DNA of 33,160 nucleotides from Alphaproteobacteria bacterium (GTDB lineage: Bacteria; Pseudomonadota; Alphaproteobacteria; Rs-D84): the NCBI GenBank assembly GCA_017513285.1, contig JAFXGD010000057.1, positions 1 through 33,160 of the forward strand. Direction: 5' to 3'. Position numbers and translations under genes: made by a program. Each line of letters starts with the position of its first letter. Position 1 is the stretch's first letter. The notes beneath the pieces were generated by a model. That model searched no databases, was not told the origin of the DNA, and saw only the letters and a list, made by a program, of their open reading frames with translations. Positions 178 to 29,388 of this stretch are shown here, one piece after another.

Positions 178-990
178 CTATCTTTTATTTTCTGCGATAA
201 TCTGTTTTGCAAATTTGCGTATTTGCTGAACAGCATCATCAAATTCAAACACATGTGGCATGGGGCAGACCGACTTCATTGTTGCATTATGCATTCTGGG
301 CGTTCTGCAAATCGGGCACATATGGAAATCACCTGCTTTTATCGCCCCACATGTTTTTGCCGCCTTGTGCGCCAAATTTGTACCGGGTTTATACACCGCA
401 ACAAATCGTGCATTTTCTTTTAACCTTAAATATTCTGTAAACATAAAAGCAGGGCACATTTGACCCGCACGTTGTTTTTCACGACGGCATGCGACCTGAT
501 GCGCACGAATTTCTTCTGCATGCTCTTGGGTGTACTTGGCACCATACTCTAATTTATGTTCACGATTTTCTTGATAATATTTCTTGGCCGTCGCCAAAAC
601 ACGTTCACGATTTCTATCGATCCACGCTTTGGTGTTGTCACGTTTACCAATGGCACGCACCCGTTTTTGTTCCGGCGTCAAAGCATCATAGTATGCCTTG
701 GACCGTTTTTTATATTTTTCCGGATTTTTGGCATATCTTGCTTTACGACGTTCACTGATTTCATCTGCATGACGTTCCCGATAACTTTTATTTTTCTCGA
801 TACGTTCTTCTAATGTCAAAGTTTTCGAATAACGTTTAGCATTTTCACGCATTTTTTCCGCATTACGCACATAGTAATCATGACGTTGTGCCGCAATCTT
901 TTCCCGATTTGCCGCACGATATCGTCTGCGCCTTTCACGTTCTTTCAACTGGGCCGGCGTTAATTCTTCATCCGGTATTCTTTTAGGCAT
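178..990 (-). CDS. Basic repeat protein with C-terminal cysteine cluster, function unknown
   Basis: A 270-residue, strongly basic protein. Roughly residues 15-170 consist of about nine imperfect units of 15-19 residues built on a pattern like Y-x3-N-x-E-K followed by R/K-x-Y (for example YRAANREKIAAQ, YVRNAEKMREN, YAKNPEKYKKR, YQENREHKLEY). This should form a long charged helical region. The C-terminal 100 residues are different and contain a possible zinc site, CGAIKAGDFHMCPIC followed by a later Cys and His pair. Similar charged repeats precede HNH-type domains in some phage and bacterial proteins (family knowledge), but I cannot see an HNH motif. The ATG at 990 is preferred; a TTG at 996 is in frame. 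No strong ribosome binding site is visible. It begins 17 bases after the LysM gene stop, so it is probably co-transcribed with it. Confidence 0.65.
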   Translation of the reverse strand: MPKRIPDEELTPAQLKERERRRRYRAANREKIAAQRHDYYVRNAEKMRENAKRYSKTLTLEERIEKNKSYRERHADEISERRKARYAKNPEKYKKRSKAYYDALTPEQKRVRAIGKRDNTKAWIDRNRERVLATAKKYYQENREHKLEYGAKYTQEHAEEIRAHQVACRREKQRAGQMCPAFMFTEYLRLKENARFVAVYKPGTNLAHKAAKTCGAIKAGDFHMCPICRTPRMHNATMKSVCPMPHVFEFDDAVQQIRKFAKQIIAENKR

Positions 991-1007
991 TTTCAAACCA
1001 TGTTTTA

Positions 1008-5953: not shown

Positions 5954-7213
5954 TCAGAATTTCACCACTGGAAGCTGAATATCAACCACTGGTTTAGAAC
6001 TCGCAGGCTTATCATCATCGACAGCAACCTGCACCTTATTGGCCAACAAGCAAGCTTTAAATTCATCGTCACCATCCAATAAATATTGCCAACAAGGCTT
6101 TCCTTTATATGTTTGTTCTGTCATATCACGTTTTCTGGTCTTTTCCAATTCAAATTGCACCACATTACCTTTTTCATCGTATTCGACAGCTTTACCGTCT
6201 TCTAATGGGCTCATTTCACAACGCCCGTTTGGCGAAATCGTACCATAATAACCATCGGGCGGACACGCAACGCACTCACGTCCCGCATCATCTGTGGCTG
6301 TCGGATCCCCCGCAAAGCCATAACCCGACTGGGCACAACGATATTGGATACAGGACCTTTCTCTCTCTCTTTTGGAAAGGACCTTATACTTCTCCTTCGC
6401 ATTCTGTCTCTTATACATTTCGCGATCTTTGAATATCTCATGATCCCAACCATTGCATATTGGTGTTGTATCACACAACACAGAATCAATTGGCACGCAA
6501 TCCGAATTATCCACATTTGGTTTATACCCATTTTTACACAACAAATGGAAATCGGCACCAATCGGTTCCATCAGAGCATAATTCCACCCACTCTCAGATT
6601 TTTCGCCAAAAGCGCGTATCGTAACCGGACGCGAAATAACACCGTGTTCTAATATTTTTTCAACCCCCATCGTAACATAATGATAATTATTTTGATCACT
6701 GGTTTTTCGTTCATTTACCTTATTACTGCAATCATAGTGATCCTTGAAAAAGTATGCCACTTTCGCCGAACCATTGTCATCATTGCCACTCATTCTTGGG
6801 ATATCTAACGGCACCGCGTCACATGTTTGTGCCCCTGTTGAATAATCAACAGAACAATTTTTACCACCAAAGCCGTCCTTACAAACCCAAAAACAATCCG
6901 CTGCACTTTTTCCCTTGGCATAGTAAGCATACAACTCAGGACGCTTGGTTGTACTGCTTCGATAACTGGCAATCAACATCGGACAAAACTCTACACCATT
7001 ACCATTTATTGTTCTGGGCAACAATACATTTATCTTTTCCTGGAATTGCCCATCTTCATCAATTGAAAACTCCGTTGGGAATGTAGAAATACACTTCTTA
7101 ACCGATGGATTGCCCCATGACGTTGAAACTTCCCCGGACACTTTATCGGCAAACGCCGGTGACGCAACACATAACGCCATAAAACCAACAAAAATATTTT
7201 TATGCATTTTCAT
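5954..7213 (-). CDS. Secreted cysteine-rich protein, function unknown
   Basis: A 419-residue protein with a clear signal peptide ([22 protein letters not shown], cleavage after AFA about residue 22). The mature part holds about 20 cysteines, mostly in short patterns such as [14 protein letters not shown] (EGF-like spacing), [31 protein letters not shown] and [11 protein letters not shown], so it is probably disulfide-stabilised outside the cytoplasm. The C-terminal 70 residues are charged and low in cysteine except CWQYLL and FKACLL. No enzyme motif is visible. The start at 7213 has AGGTGG upstream, lying partly in the end of the preceding gene; only 12 bases separate the two, so translation is probably coupled with the 813-aa secreted protein. 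I do not recognise a named family. Confidence 0.8.
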
Positions 7214-7225
7214 ACGTCACCACCT

Positions 7226-9667
7226 TTATTCATTTTCCAATTTATTACGGGAATCCCAATAACAAGTGTTATCCGACCATTCGCCATTTAACACATTGGC
7301 GCAAACATATTCATACCATTCATTTTTAAATATACAAACATTACGTGTCGAATCAAATGTTGTATATTCCACACCATCGCCCATGTCATTTTGTGCCAAA
7401 CACGCCGTTCTTTCCGTATTTGCCACACAACGTCCATAATATTCCAAATCTGCCGAATTCCGGGCTGTACGACCAAACACCGTCGCATAGAATGTGTTTT
7501 CTTGTTCCAACTTCTGCACACCTGCACCTAAACCACCGGATTCATCCGCTTCATACCATAACCCGTTGTTTTCCGCACATTTTTCCATCAACGCACTACC
7601 AATTCCGGCAACAACATTGTCGTATATCCGTTCAATCGATTCCCGCATTGCGGTATCTTTTATGTCATCAAAACTTGTTGCATTTTCATCGATTTTATCG
7701 CCATTCGGTTCACGACAATACAACGCCACACGTGTCATTATCGACTTTCTTAAATCCGATTGGGACAATGTACGGCAATTCCATGGATATGCGCCATCAC
7801 CCGTTGGTGTACACGTATCGGTCACATATTTTTCAATTGCTGCGGTACATCCTTCGGCGACCCGCACCGCATCAACCGTATTGGCATAATCCAACAATGC
7901 CGCCATACCACAACCTTTGGCTGTTGTATCAAATGCAACCTTGCCATTTGTAACGGTCACATTACAGGTTTCGTTTCCATACAAATTCGCACAAGACAAC
8001 AATTTATCAACACACATCTGTTGCGCCGCATATGCCGCCAAACCACCCGACACCTGGGCCGTTGTGTCATCAAAAGATTTTAAATGATTCGATTGCGTAT
8101 CATAACATTCACGCACCGTTTCCATACAAGACGCTTTAATTTCTTCTATCTTTTCATTTTGTGCCTGTTCAATTTCAATTTTTGCGGCCCGTTTAAATTC
8201 AAACCAAACCGTATCCGCAATATCACGACAAGAATCCAACGCAGATTCCGCATAAATGCGACGTTCATCCAAGAACGAATCAAACCCGCCCGCTGGCGCC
8301 GCAGCATTACTGCGACCGACATAACCGTCATCCAAATTAATCAAACTCGTCAAATTCAGCAATTCCGGCGTATAAATCGGTTCCCCCGTTGACAGGTTGA
8401 TATATTTACCGGTGTAATCCAAACATCTGTAATAATTGTCACCACATGCGGTATCTTGCAATATTGCTTCACGAACACGTGACAAACATTCATTAACATC
8501 GGCAGAATTATGCGCACGATATTCTTCCAAACGTGCCTGACGCAAAGTTTTTTCCGCCACACGAACGACACCCAAAACCTCTTCACGCTTTCTGTCCAAC
8601 GCACGTTCATATGCATTACAATCTTGGGTTACCATGATGCCATATGCACTGGACGCCATATTTAACACAGCGCTGCTTTCACAAGATTCTTTGATAACCT
8701 GCATACACTGTTTGTTTGCAGCGTTATACAGATTTGCACCTTCTAACGAACTCATATCCGTGGCACTGCTTTCAAAAATAGAACTGAATGCGCCACCACT
8801 GGAACCACCGCCCCATACATCATCCAAACTGGACGAAAAATCCAACGACATAACACCCAAAGATGTTGTTGATGTCGCAGCAACCGTACTGGCTTTCTTT
8901 TTACCCGACAACAAATCACCAATTTCATTCAGTGTTTTTTGGGCCAAACTGGTATCTTTCTTGATTGCCGCTTCACCGACCGTTGCGCTGTACATTGCGT
9001 TAACTTCGGCGGCCGTTTTATCAATGGCGTTCAAACTGTTATCTTCGAATTGTTGTAATAACTGACGTGCTTCATCCAACGCATATTCTGTATCACGAAA
9101 TTCTGTAAAGCGTGCACTGCAATAACAGCGGCGATACGTATCATTGGCATTTGCACAAAATTGATCCATGCATGTTGCATACGCTTCACGACACGCCGCA
9201 TATCCACCACCAATCTTGGACACATCGTTAAAGACCGCCGTTGCACGGGCCGTTGTCGCCGCACGGGCCACACCAGACGCCACAGGGGCCGCACTGCGTG
9301 CAGCATTTCCACCACGCACAGTCGCCGCACGGGCCGCCACCGGGGCCGCACTGCGTGCCACAGTTGCACCACCACGAATCGTCGCCGCACGTGCGCCAAC
9401 ACGATCCGCAACGGGCTTTACATCCGTGGCCGCACGAACCGCACCAGATGCACGTTTGGACGCAACACGCCCCACATCCGCACCATTTGCACGGTTAATT
9501 GATTTACCATCTGCCCGTGCGCCCATCGGGGACGAAATCGCACTGCGTGGATTGGGCGCCGGTTCCGCAATCGCCATACCATACGCCGCCATCATAAAGG
9601 CACAAAAACTGCTTAAAAAATATAAAGAACGTTTCAATTTACTTCTCTCTTTTTCGCATTTTACCAT
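7226..9667 (-). CDS. Large secreted cysteine-rich protein (paralogue of 27010-29388)
   Basis: An 813-residue exported protein of no family I recognise. A hydrophobic signal segment (about 13-34, LYFLSSFCAFMMAAYGMAIA) is followed by a low-complexity Ala/Arg/Gly/Val region to about residue 145, including a 19-residue tandem repeat. From about 150 come blocks shared with the protein at 27010-29388: Y-x2-C-x5-Y-x2-CMDQFC-x5-D-x-YRRC-x-CS-x-R; VGEAAIKKDTS; QDCNAYERALDRKRE; HNSADVNECLSRV; CGDNYYRCLD with GKYINLSTGEPI; SCRDIADTVWFEF; QNEKIEEIKASC; MCVDKLLSC. Around 30 cysteines in regular blocks suggest disulfide bonding. The C-terminal third (from about 600) is not clearly shared. Start is taken at the ATG with AAGGG upstream; a TTG 11 codons later (LKRSLYF) would give a more typical signal peptide. 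It is co-transcribed with 5954-7213 and probably with 9692-10099. Confidence 0.8.
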   Translation of the reverse strand: MVKCEKERSKLKRSLYFLSSFCAFMMAAYGMAIAEPAPNPRSAISSPMGARADGKSINRANGADVGRVASKRASGAVRAATDVKPVADRVGARAATIRGGATVARSAAPVAARAATVRGGNAARSAAPVASGVARAATTARATAVFNDVSKIGGGYAACREAYATCMDQFCANANDTYRRCYCSARFTEFRDTEYALDEARQLLQQFEDNSLNAIDKTAAEVNAMYSATVGEAAIKKDTSLAQKTLNEIGDLLSGKKKASTVAATSTTSLGVMSLDFSSSLDDVWGGGSSGGAFSSIFESSATDMSSLEGANLYNAANKQCMQVIKESCESSAVLNMASSAYGIMVTQDCNAYERALDRKREEVLGVVRVAEKTLRQARLEEYRAHNSADVNECLSRVREAILQDTACGDNYYRCLDYTGKYINLSTGEPIYTPELLNLTSLINLDDGYVGRSNAAAPAGGFDSFLDERRIYAESALDSCRDIADTVWFEFKRAAKIEIEQAQNEKIEEIKASCMETVRECYDTQSNHLKSFDDTTAQVSGGLAAYAAQQMCVDKLLSCANLYGNETCNVTVTNGKVAFDTTAKGCGMAALLDYANTVDAVRVAEGCTAAIEKYVTDTCTPTGDGAYPWNCRTLSQSDLRKSIMTRVALYCREPNGDKIDENATSFDDIKDTAMRESIERIYDNVVAGIGSALMEKCAENNGLWYEADESGGLGAGVQKLEQENTFYATVFGRTARNSADLEYYGRCVANTERTACLAQNDMGDGVEYTTFDSTRNVCIFKNEWYEYVCANVLNGEWSDNTCYWDSRNKLENE
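9280..9398. repeat. 57-bp tandem repeat encoding an Ala/Arg-rich stretch
   Basis: Two adjacent units encode ARAATIRGGATVARSAAPVA and ARAATVRGGNAARSAAPVA. A 17-base identical core recurs 57 bases apart (9285-9301 and 9342-9358). It is in frame, so copy-number change would lengthen or shorten the secreted protein without breaking it. Confidence 0.7.
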
Positions 9668-17511: not shown

Positions 17512-17535
17512 TTTTATTCCTATGAATCTACTACA

Positions 17536-17560
17536 ATCCCCTGTATCAGGGGGTATTTTT
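17536..17560 (+). promoter_or_regulatory. Hairpin covering the ribosome binding site of 17561-18487, or an intrinsic terminator
   Basis: CCCCTG (17538-17543), loop TAT, CAGGGG (17547-17552), extended by a G-T and an A-T pair. The 3' arm AGGGGG is the only Shine-Dalgarno candidate for the ATG at 17561 (spacing seven). The following GTATTTTT also makes it a plausible short terminator for the 73-aa gene. It may attenuate or gate expression of the downstream gene. Confidence 0.55.
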
Positions 17561-18487
17561 ATGGCCATCACATATGATAAAAAGCGCACAGACATAACAT
17601 TCTGCACCATGTTGTTTCAAATTCCACGCAATAATTTAAACAGCCTGAAACACATGGACAGGAAATTTGAAGAATTCTATCTGCCAAATTTGAAAAAATT
17701 GATTGAAACATTTGGGCGTGTCGCACTGTGGTGCGACGACACAACGGCAAAATATCTGCGCAAACATGGATTGGATAAAAATATCAACATGCGTGTAATG
17801 CGGTTCAACCAACTGCCCCATACCGGCGAACGAAATCTGTGGTTAAAAACAATGCACGGCATGCGCAAATATGTTGGATATTTCCTGCACAATAAAACCC
17901 CCGAACAGTGGATTGATTATATGATGATAATCAATGCCAAACCCGCCGTTATGGAATGGGCGGCAACCAACAATAAATTTAATTCTAAATACTTTATGTG
18001 GATTGATGCCGGTGCCACCAATCCAATGTACGCCGCATGTTGGGAAAATTGGGACGGGCATATATACGCAAAACCCAAAAATCGTGTCCGTATTACGATT
18101 GCACGAACATTGGGCAAATCACGCCCACATTTTGTTCCCCGATTTATATACAATATTTTTCGCACAAACCCCAAACATATACCATATGCGACACGTGAAA
18201 CGCTGATACGCCAAAATTTACGTGACATCGCCATGATAAATGCCGATTACGACGTTCCCGCATGCAGTATGCTGATGTCATGCGACATGGTACATAAATT
18301 TTACAACGCATTTGAACGGACCCGCAAAATCATGTTGCGCCACAACCTGGTATCGACGGAACAGGCTGTATTCCAAGCAATGATGAAATTTGACACCGAA
18401 CAAATGTTTGAATTATCGTACATATACGGTTATTCGGGCGTATATGCCGCCGTTGCCAAGAAAGAACCCGACCACATTTTGGAATAA
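17561..18487 (+). CDS. HtrL/YibB (WlaTC)-like putative glycosyltransferase
   Basis: A 308-residue soluble protein. The central segment KPAVMEWAATNNKFNSKYFMWIDAGA (split here as KPAVMEWAATN and FNSKYFMWIDAG, about residues 125-150) resembles the most conserved part of the HtrL/YibB family, where a lysine-containing helix is followed by N-x-F-x(T/S)-x-YF-x-WIDxG; the Asp of WIDAG may act like the metal-binding Asp of GT-A glycosyltransferases. The later pattern ACSMLMSCDMVHKFYNAF ... STEQAVFQAM also fits the family, where a glycine/methionine loop precedes a helix and an acidic TE/DE. Members are linked to lipopolysaccharide or capsule loci. The gene is rich in Asn, Lys and Arg. Start is set at ATG 17561, which has AGGGGG upstream, rather than the in-frame ATG at 17522, which has none. 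Sugar and acceptor cannot be inferred. Confidence 0.7.
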   Translation: MAITYDKKRTDITFCTMLFQIPRNNLNSLKHMDRKFEEFYLPNLKKLIETFGRVALWCDDTTAKYLRKHGLDKNINMRVMRFNQLPHTGERNLWLKTMHGMRKYVGYFLHNKTPEQWIDYMMIINAKPAVMEWAATNNKFNSKYFMWIDAGATNPMYAACWENWDGHIYAKPKNRVRITIARTLGKSRPHFVPRFIYNIFRTNPKHIPYATRETLIRQNLRDIAMINADYDVPACSMLMSCDMVHKFYNAFERTRKIMLRHNLVSTEQAVFQAMMKFDTEQMFELSYIYGYSGVYAAVAKKEPDHILE

Positions 18488-26973: not shown

Positions 26974-26991
26974 CAAAAATACGCATTTTTG
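26974..26991. repeat. Inverted repeat upstream of the 792-aa secreted protein
   Basis: CAAAAAT (26974-26980) and ATTTTTG (26985-26991) are perfect inverted copies around ACGC. They lie between a possible -35 (TTGCGC, 26969-26974) and -10 (TATCAT, 26993-26998), which would leave only a few bases before the ATG at 27010. This would suit an operator; it is AT-rich and could be chance. Confidence 0.35.
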
Positions 26992-27009
26992 ATATCATTT
27001 ACACCAGAG

Positions 27010-29388
27010 ATGAAGAAAATTCTGATTTTTACTGCAAACATCTTGGCATGCTTTGGGGTTGCCAATGCTGCTGTCCGTGACGGGACGGCCGTGGCACGCA
27101 CGGCAAAATCTGCAGCACAAACGCAAAATCGCATATATTCTACGCCACGCAGCACAACACAACGCAAACCATCAACCCCCGTGGCACGCACCACTGCATC
27201 ACGCACAGCCCAGCGCACAACAACACCCACACAGAACCAAGCACCCCAACGCATCACCGCACGCAGCGCCACGACCGGCGCCGGCTTTGACATGGCGCAA
27301 ACACGCACAGGTGCGGAATACGAACAATGTAAAAACACCTACTTTTCATGCATGGACCAATTCTGCACATTAAAAAGCGATGATTACCGTCGTTGTTCTT
27401 GCAGCGACCGTGTCTATAAATTAATGGATGCCCGCGACACACTGCAAAGTGCCGGCGACAAATTAACCACATTTTCAGACAACCTGGACATTGTTGGAAT
27501 GACCGCCGCCCAAGCCGGCGCAATGGTCAGTGCATCCGAAGGCGAAATCGCATTAACCAAAGACACATCCGCATCCAAAGCACTGCTGCAGGCTATTATG
27601 AATTCCATCCGTGGCGCAGACAGTCATGTTGACGGCAAATATTCCGATTTAAACAGCATAAAAATATCTTTTGATACCGCAAATGCATTTGGCACAGCGG
27701 ACGCCGGACAAATAATTGGCACTTACAACGGGCAATCATTATACAGTGCGGTCTATCCCCAATGTCGAAAAGCCGTCATGGCAGACTGCAACGACGCATC
27801 ATTACAACGTGCGGTCACCGCATACTTAATGGCCATTGAACAAGACTGCAACACCGTCGCCACCGCCATTGAAACCAGTCGCAAAGAAATGAAAGCCAAC
27901 ATCCGTGAAGGCAGTGCCATGTTGGATTTGGCCCGTATTGAAAATCGCAAAAAACACAACTCTGCCGATATGACCGCATGTATAAATGCGGTTGAAAGCG
28001 CCATTGTCGACGAACAAGTATGCGGCAAAAATTATCACAAATGCCTGGACAACGGGAAATATATTGACATATCGACCGGCGCACCGATTACAGGCGTCAA
28101 AGATTTCTATAAACTGGAACAAATGTTGGTCTTTGCAGATGGGATAGAGGCCGCAGATCAAAAACTGGCCCAAAATGCAGCCAATCGTGCATTTGTACAA
28201 AATTTTGAAAATCGTGTAAAAAAGTTTGCCACCGACGCCCTGAACACATGTACCGAACAAGCCGACATCGTATGGGCAGAATACTTGGACAAAGCAATGT
28301 TGGACATATACTATGCCCAAAAAGAAAAAGTCCAAGAAATCAAGCAGGGATGCTTTGACTTTGTGTCTTCATGCTATATCAACAATGACAACGCCATAAC
28401 ATCTGCCATGGCGGAATTAACCGGCGATGCCACAATTGTCTTACAGCCAGACGCATTGACATTAAATGCCAATATGTGTGCCGACTATGTACAATCATGC
28501 AACAACATGTTTGACGACAATATTATCCAAGCATATATGGACACAATCCAAGACACCGACACACTAACCGCATGCCGTGCGGTTGTAAAGCAGTGCTTTG
28601 ATAAATACGGTGGCACGAATTATGAAAATTTCTATTATCCATACAGTGGACTGTTTAAAACGGGTATGGCGCCCGACTGGTTCACACTGTACGATTACAC
28701 ATCTTCTAGCACCCCGATTATCAAATCTGAATGCGCAAAGCAATTGCAAAATATATCCGCATGCAGCAGCGATGACATGATTGAACGTGCATTTGGCGGT
28801 TTCGATTTGGCAAACACAAACGCCACCCACGACGAAGATTCACCATTGGCATTTAAGACCGACGGCGACACCCCCAGATACGGCTTTATCACAAACGATA
28901 TTCTGAATCATCGCTATCTGCGACCCAGGGGCGTCGCAACCGAAATTTACAATCAAATACTGTCTATATTGACCACGCAATGCACAAATATTTCGGGCCG
29001 TTTTGTTGAATATCAATGGATTAACACAGGTATTTATAACCAGGAAGCTTTCTGTCAAATCAAGTCAGACAATTCAACGGGTGGGACAGGAACGCCATTC
29101 TCCCCCACCGGTTATAATATTCAAGGCGCTGAAAACATGTGTCCATTGGGATATGCAGACGGCGTTGACACACAATCATGGGGTGCATGCCTGTGTTGGG
29201 AAAACGGCGGCCGACGCAGTAACAATGGCACATCTGCAAAATGCGTCGCCACCATTCCGAAAACAGAGGGTACCACCACCACATGGGAAGACGCCACAAT
29301 CAACCAACAAAATCAGGTTCAACCTTTGAGTTGCAGCCCCACCACCACCTCATGCGACATATCGCAAACCCCCGAAGGAATGGAATAA
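27010..29388 (+). CDS. Large secreted cysteine-rich protein (paralogue of 7226-9667)
   Basis: A 792-residue exported protein. Signal peptide MKKILIFTANILACFGVANA (cleavage about 20), then a Thr/Arg/Ala/Gln-rich low-complexity region to about residue 95. The shared blocks follow in the same order as in the 813-aa protein: Y-x2-C-x3-YFSCMDQFC with DDYRRCSCSDR (about 105-135); SEGEIALTKDTS; QDCNTVATAIETSRKE; HNSADMTACINAV; CGKNYHKCLD with GKYIDISTGAPI; TCTEQADIVWAEY; QKEKVQEIKQGC; MCADYVQSCNNMF. The C-terminal 150 residues differ, with MCPLGYADG and WGACLCWENGG resembling the Cys patterns of the 419-aa protein. There are about 30 cysteines. The start is the ATG at 27010 (signal peptide fits); the frame also runs from a TTG at 26989. 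The ribosome binding site is weak. It is monocistronic, with a terminator after it. Family and function are not recognised. Confidence 0.8.
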   Translation: MKKILIFTANILACFGVANAAVRDGTAVARTAKSAAQTQNRIYSTPRSTTQRKPSTPVARTTASRTAQRTTTPTQNQAPQRITARSATTGAGFDMAQTRTGAEYEQCKNTYFSCMDQFCTLKSDDYRRCSCSDRVYKLMDARDTLQSAGDKLTTFSDNLDIVGMTAAQAGAMVSASEGEIALTKDTSASKALLQAIMNSIRGADSHVDGKYSDLNSIKISFDTANAFGTADAGQIIGTYNGQSLYSAVYPQCRKAVMADCNDASLQRAVTAYLMAIEQDCNTVATAIETSRKEMKANIREGSAMLDLARIENRKKHNSADMTACINAVESAIVDEQVCGKNYHKCLDNGKYIDISTGAPITGVKDFYKLEQMLVFADGIEAADQKLAQNAANRAFVQNFENRVKKFATDALNTCTEQADIVWAEYLDKAMLDIYYAQKEKVQEIKQGCFDFVSSCYINNDNAITSAMAELTGDATIVLQPDALTLNANMCADYVQSCNNMFDDNIIQAYMDTIQDTDTLTACRAVVKQCFDKYGGTNYENFYYPYSGLFKTGMAPDWFTLYDYTSSSTPIIKSECAKQLQNISACSSDDMIERAFGGFDLANTNATHDEDSPLAFKTDGDTPRYGFITNDILNHRYLRPRGVATEIYNQILSILTTQCTNISGRFVEYQWINTGIYNQEAFCQIKSDNSTGGTGTPFSPTGYNIQGAENMCPLGYADGVDTQSWGACLCWENGGRRSNNGTSAKCVATIPKTEGTTTTWEDATINQQNQVQPLSCSPTTTSCDISQTPEGME

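Follow-up and report, generated by a model that had tools for sequence, protein, structure and literature searches.

Two genes in the window, by which we mean the whole 33,160-nucleotide stretch of DNA analysed here, encode true paralogues, and our results support the view of the initial annotation that they belong to an undescribed family of large, exported, cysteine-rich proteins. The source genome is apparently a member of 'Candidatus Enterousia', which the literature assigns to the order Rs-D84. Bacteria of this order occur widely in animal guts, have not been cultured and reportedly depend on partners. Given that the family is nearly universal in this order, restricted to it in our searches and occupies about 3% of a 1-Mb genome, it is a direct and testable candidate for a role in cell contact or feeding. 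It is probably important in the construction of the envelope of these bacteria or in their contact with other cells.

The first gene, P0001, lies at positions 7226–9667 on the minus strand and encodes an exported protein of 813 amino acids. The second, P0002, lies at 27010–29388 on the plus strand and encodes an exported protein of 792 amino acids, within an ORF that spans 26989–29388 and has a likely ATG start at 27010. Both were recognized as ORFs and by their homology to each other, and their placement on opposite strands is as first annotated. BLASTP aligned the two proteins with 31% identity across 513 amino acids (E=1e-61). We also compared the cores after removal of the low-complexity linkers; these gave 204 bits (E=6e-61), whereas 60 shuffles reached a maximum of 23 bits. 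Because the cores alone score far above the shuffles, the homology is independent of the linkers, and the earlier claim of a real domain family rather than an effect of composition holds. The blocks of sequence that had been reported as shared were all present in the same order and align far above background, but two of the patterns had to be amended, to GKYI-x-[IL]STG and Q[NK]EK-x2-EIK.

The family plan comprises a signal peptide, an Arg-rich basic linker, a near-invariant C-x6-CMDxFC...CxCS module, an acidic helical core and a variable C-terminus, and members from the other families of the order share it. In P0001 (all positions on the minus strand), the signal peptide was placed by eye from the translation at residues 1–35 (9563–9667; edge approximate) and is followed by a low-complexity Ala/Arg/Thr/Ser linker (9224–9562) with a computed net charge of about +13, in which Arg far exceeds Lys; this layout is common to most members. 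The signature C159-x6-C166-MDQF-C171-x9-C181-x-C183-S (residues 159–184; 9116–9193) is near-invariant in the P0001 group and retained across the order; its column conservation averaged 0.94 among 56 P0001 orthologues, versus 0.62 in the remaining core. The acidic core (residues 185–628; 7784–9115) is predicted to be mostly alpha-helical in an AlphaFold2 model, which contains long helices and only short strands. With a mean pLDDT of 78 and a pTM of 0.54, the model is more reliable locally than in its overall arrangement. The C-terminal region (residues 629–813; 7229–7783) is variable by the same conservation measure, with most columns in the last 180 residues of the orthologues at 0.25–0.55. 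The core and C-terminus together carry a computed net charge of −38. In P0002, the signature module, CKNTYFSCMDQFCTLKSDDYRRCSCS, was read from the translation and aligned with the family (27328–27405, plus strand), and its Thr/Arg/Ala linker (27070–27297, plus strand; edges approximate) has a computed net charge of about +11. Both proteins have low-complexity linkers after the signal peptide and C-termini that diverge from each other, as the initial annotation described. Across the family, the N-termini resemble signal peptides by inspection, the computed net charge of the linker mostly lies between about +10 and +20, and that of the acidic cores of full-length members is about −24 to −75. Some members (L108:5505-7901, L207:5862-8018 and those of family f4) end in glycine-zipper-like hydrophobic C-terminal stretches.

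Counting the copies per genome had been proposed as a check on the family. The source genome (1.10 Mb in 88 contigs, 96% complete) carries at least 14 members, several of them cut by contig ends; this count was built from searches plus stretches of the genome and is a lower bound. The family fills about 33 kb, or about 3% of the genome, as estimated from member lengths, and a relative assembled as a single contig has about 13 copies. The order was sampled with 190 genomes, 172 from the family-level group of the source genome and 18 from other families. With the P0001 alignment as a query, all 172 of the former were positive at E<=1e-5. With a broader profile, 17 of the 18 others were positive (best match E<=2e-8), and only G029 gave no match. 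No match was found in about 380 alphaproteobacterial genomes outside the order, nor outside the order in 396 phylum-wide genomes, and the viral contigs and plasmids searched contained no relative of the family. A phage or plasmid origin was rejected on the basis of the viral and plasmid searches, and horizontal spread because the class and phylum samples were blank outside the order.

Next, we considered the evolution of the paralogues, which are old one-to-one orthologous groups. Twelve members of the source genome are reciprocal best hits with members of the single-contig relative (43–59% identity), P0002 has a reciprocal best hit there that is 56% identical, and a tree united most of the cross-genome pairs with support near 1.0. 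Exact DNA tracts shared between paralogues reached at most 26 bases in the source genome, in a comparison that excluded P0002, and 19 bases in the single-contig relative. Antigenic variation via recombination was rejected because exact tracts between paralogues do not exceed 26 bases. Orthologues of P0001 with conserved neighbours occur in 50 or more relatives, in the order dnaE-rsmH-P0001-partner, often with dnaK beyond, and a cluster of three family genes is also conserved in many relatives. The partner gene (5954–7213, minus strand), which begins 12 bases downstream of P0001, encodes a cysteine-rich protein of 419 amino acids, judged by inspection to be exported. About 40 relatives have a homologue in the corresponding position, with 21–30% identity, and the partner evolves much faster than P0001. 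Its model is beta-rich (pLDDT 76) with no match in the PDB at E<=0.001, and 11 of 41 partner homologues gave weak, sub-threshold matches to cEGF, an EGF-like domain.

Several other genes in the window and near family members were recorded. The window contains a repetitive, charged ORF matching PHROG 17714 (178–996, minus strand; E=6e-4) and an HtrL_YibB-like protein (17522–18487, plus strand; PF09612, E=4e-6). Elsewhere in the order, a Pom-like gene (Protochlamydia outer membrane protein, PF17251, E=5.6e-9) at L109:1873-3528 adjoins a family member, and another has beside it a pair of exported proteins whose TAAHC motifs, seen by eye, resemble those of serine proteases (L114:2626-6000); a Pfam scan of L114:2626-4125 gave no match. 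The order also has a type IVb pilus-like machine (L227, L228 and L110:162-2694) consisting of secretin, PilO, T2SSE and T2SSF, together with a sub-threshold Shufflon_N-like protein.

The searches for a known family or fold agree with the earlier statement that no named family fits. P0001 matched nothing in Pfam at E<=1, a Pfam scan of 23 diverse members returned no OmcB family among its matches, and NCBIfam and PADLOC gave no credible family. Against PDB sequences, phmmer found none and a profile search yielded chance-level matches only, while Foldseek found nothing at E<=0.001 (best E of 0.5 in the PDB and 0.13 in BFVD). A Pfam match of P0002 to Sol_i_2 (E=0.0018, under its cut-off) and PHROGs matches at E of 0.04–0.95 were regarded as chance. 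Assignment to a known family was dropped after these searches, and we found no description of the family in the literature searched on Enterousia and Rs-D84. Neither outcome that the initial annotation had named as a refutation, a confident family assignment or shared blocks that fail to align, was obtained.

We then examined the cysteines. The core cysteine count is even in 147 of the 169 signature-bearing members. C159 and C329 are jointly absent in members of families f2, f4 and f6, and C181 and C350 have been lost together in L210. The cysteines of the signature module, including its CxC motif, are nearly invariant across the order. Because core counts are usually even and these residues are lost pairwise, the sequences suggest that the cysteines form disulfides, in events that are few and, given that the members are related, not independent. 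The proposal of a disulfide-linked structure in the initial annotation therefore gains support from the even counts and paired losses as to the linkage, and its role is something we infer. A single DsbA-like protein was found in each of seven order genomes checked (including G000 and G050), and its gene lies near the three-gene family cluster in both genomes inspected. Searches of the seven genomes turned up no DsbB and no VKOR, while control genomes were positive for both. This result and the reported absence of a respiratory chain from the lineage leave no evident route to disulfide formation and count against the explanation preferred below. A DsbA-like protein without a recognized partner enzyme raises the question of how an anaerobe oxidizes so many cysteines.

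The homology, architecture, copy number, distribution, old orthologues, charge pattern and paired cysteine losses given above were computed here; as to function, we infer, with a probability of about 0.4, that the proteins are scaffolds of the envelope or cell surface, braced by disulfides, that serve contact with partner cells, a reading that we prefer to a periplasmic scaffold, effectors, nutrient capture or metal binding. Each protein would exit by Sec, with cysteine pairing taking place in the periplasm. Through its basic linker it might be attached to an anionic partner, for example lipopolysaccharide, peptidoglycan or the surface glycans of another cell, and the rod-like core, with its paralogue-specific signature loop and variable C-terminus, might carry exported partner proteins that contact neighbouring cells. 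In its favour we counted the signal-peptide-like N-termini, the basic linkers and acidic cores, the signature, the cysteines, the DsbA-like protein, the gene neighbourhood and universality in the family-level group, as well as the reported occurrence of many hypothetical membrane-bound proteins in partner-dependent reduced genomes (PMC12306168). Against it we counted the existence of non-basic linkers (−13 in L108_5505 and −1 in L184_6220), the lack of an evident downstream partner for P0002 and similar paralogues, the fact that no lipobox or barrel anchor was identified in the family proteins, and the absence of independent support for adhesion from fold or family matches. A broader version, in which the family would be an order-defining envelope system of such scaffolds, some with a dedicated exported partner, for docking on and drawing from partner cells, its disulfides being made without a recognized DsbB or VKOR, seems unlikely.

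A purely periplasmic role is somewhat unlikely; here the helical rods, braced by disulfides, would bridge the periplasm or give it a pattern and would make the envelope stiffer, the linker would sit on peptidoglycan, and other cells would not be contacted. The one-to-one orthologues with conserved neighbours resemble a housekeeping structure, and near-universality in the order and the long helices of the P0001 model fit as well; however, the variable C-termini and the fast-evolving exported partner better suit an exposed interface. It is distinctly unlikely that the proteins are effectors secreted through a type IVb pilus or type II-like secretin machine to act on neighbouring or host cells. 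Strong conservation and vertical inheritance are atypical of effectors, no toxin or enzyme domain was found in the family, and machine and family genes have no demonstrated link, even though a secretin occurs in seven of seven genomes, T2SSE, T2SSF and PilO adjoin it in one order genome, and some members have the hydrophobic ends noted above. Standard transporters for sugars, amino acids and peptides are reportedly missing from the lineage (PMC12306168), and its small genome keeps a large exported paralogous set, as might be expected if the proteins were surface receptors capturing nutrients for a transporter-poor cell; but with neither a binding domain nor a neighbouring transporter, we consider such receptors improbable. 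Least probable of all, in our estimation, are metal-binding or redox-active cysteines in place of structural disulfides. The nearly invariant CxC motif, the failure to find DsbB and VKOR and the anaerobic, fermentative lifestyle of the lineage (PMC12306168) would accord with them, yet even counts, pairwise co-loss and the DsbA-like protein suit disulfide pairs.

The scaffold for cell contact can be compared with known systems. None of the described families matches, and disulfide-braced envelope proteins as such are known elsewhere, for example in Chlamydia. The Pmp proteins of Chlamydia, which are autotransporters with a C-terminal barrel, and other lineage-specific exported families are likewise sets of numerous exported paralogues encoded by a reduced, host-associated genome; however, the P0001 model lacks a C-terminal beta-barrel and P0001 has no Pfam match. 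Unlike recombining surface-antigen families, the Rs-D84 paralogues show no sequence-exchange tracts in the two genomes compared. The 60-kDa cysteine-rich outer-membrane protein OmcB has a basic N-terminus and undergoes disulfide crosslinking in the outer envelope. It is large, exported and rich in cysteines and belongs to the envelope, as the Rs-D84 proteins probably do, and both occur in bacteria that depend on partners. In the Rs-D84 proteins, too, a basic N-terminal region precedes a cysteine-rich part, which is a resemblance and not membership. OmcB is described as a surface-exposed, heparin-binding adhesin (PMC2811131). The Rs-D84 family has no sequence match to the OmcB Pfam family, is predicted to be mostly helical and has at least 14 paralogues. 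Our best guess is that the Rs-D84 family is an unrelated analogue of chlamydial OmcB.
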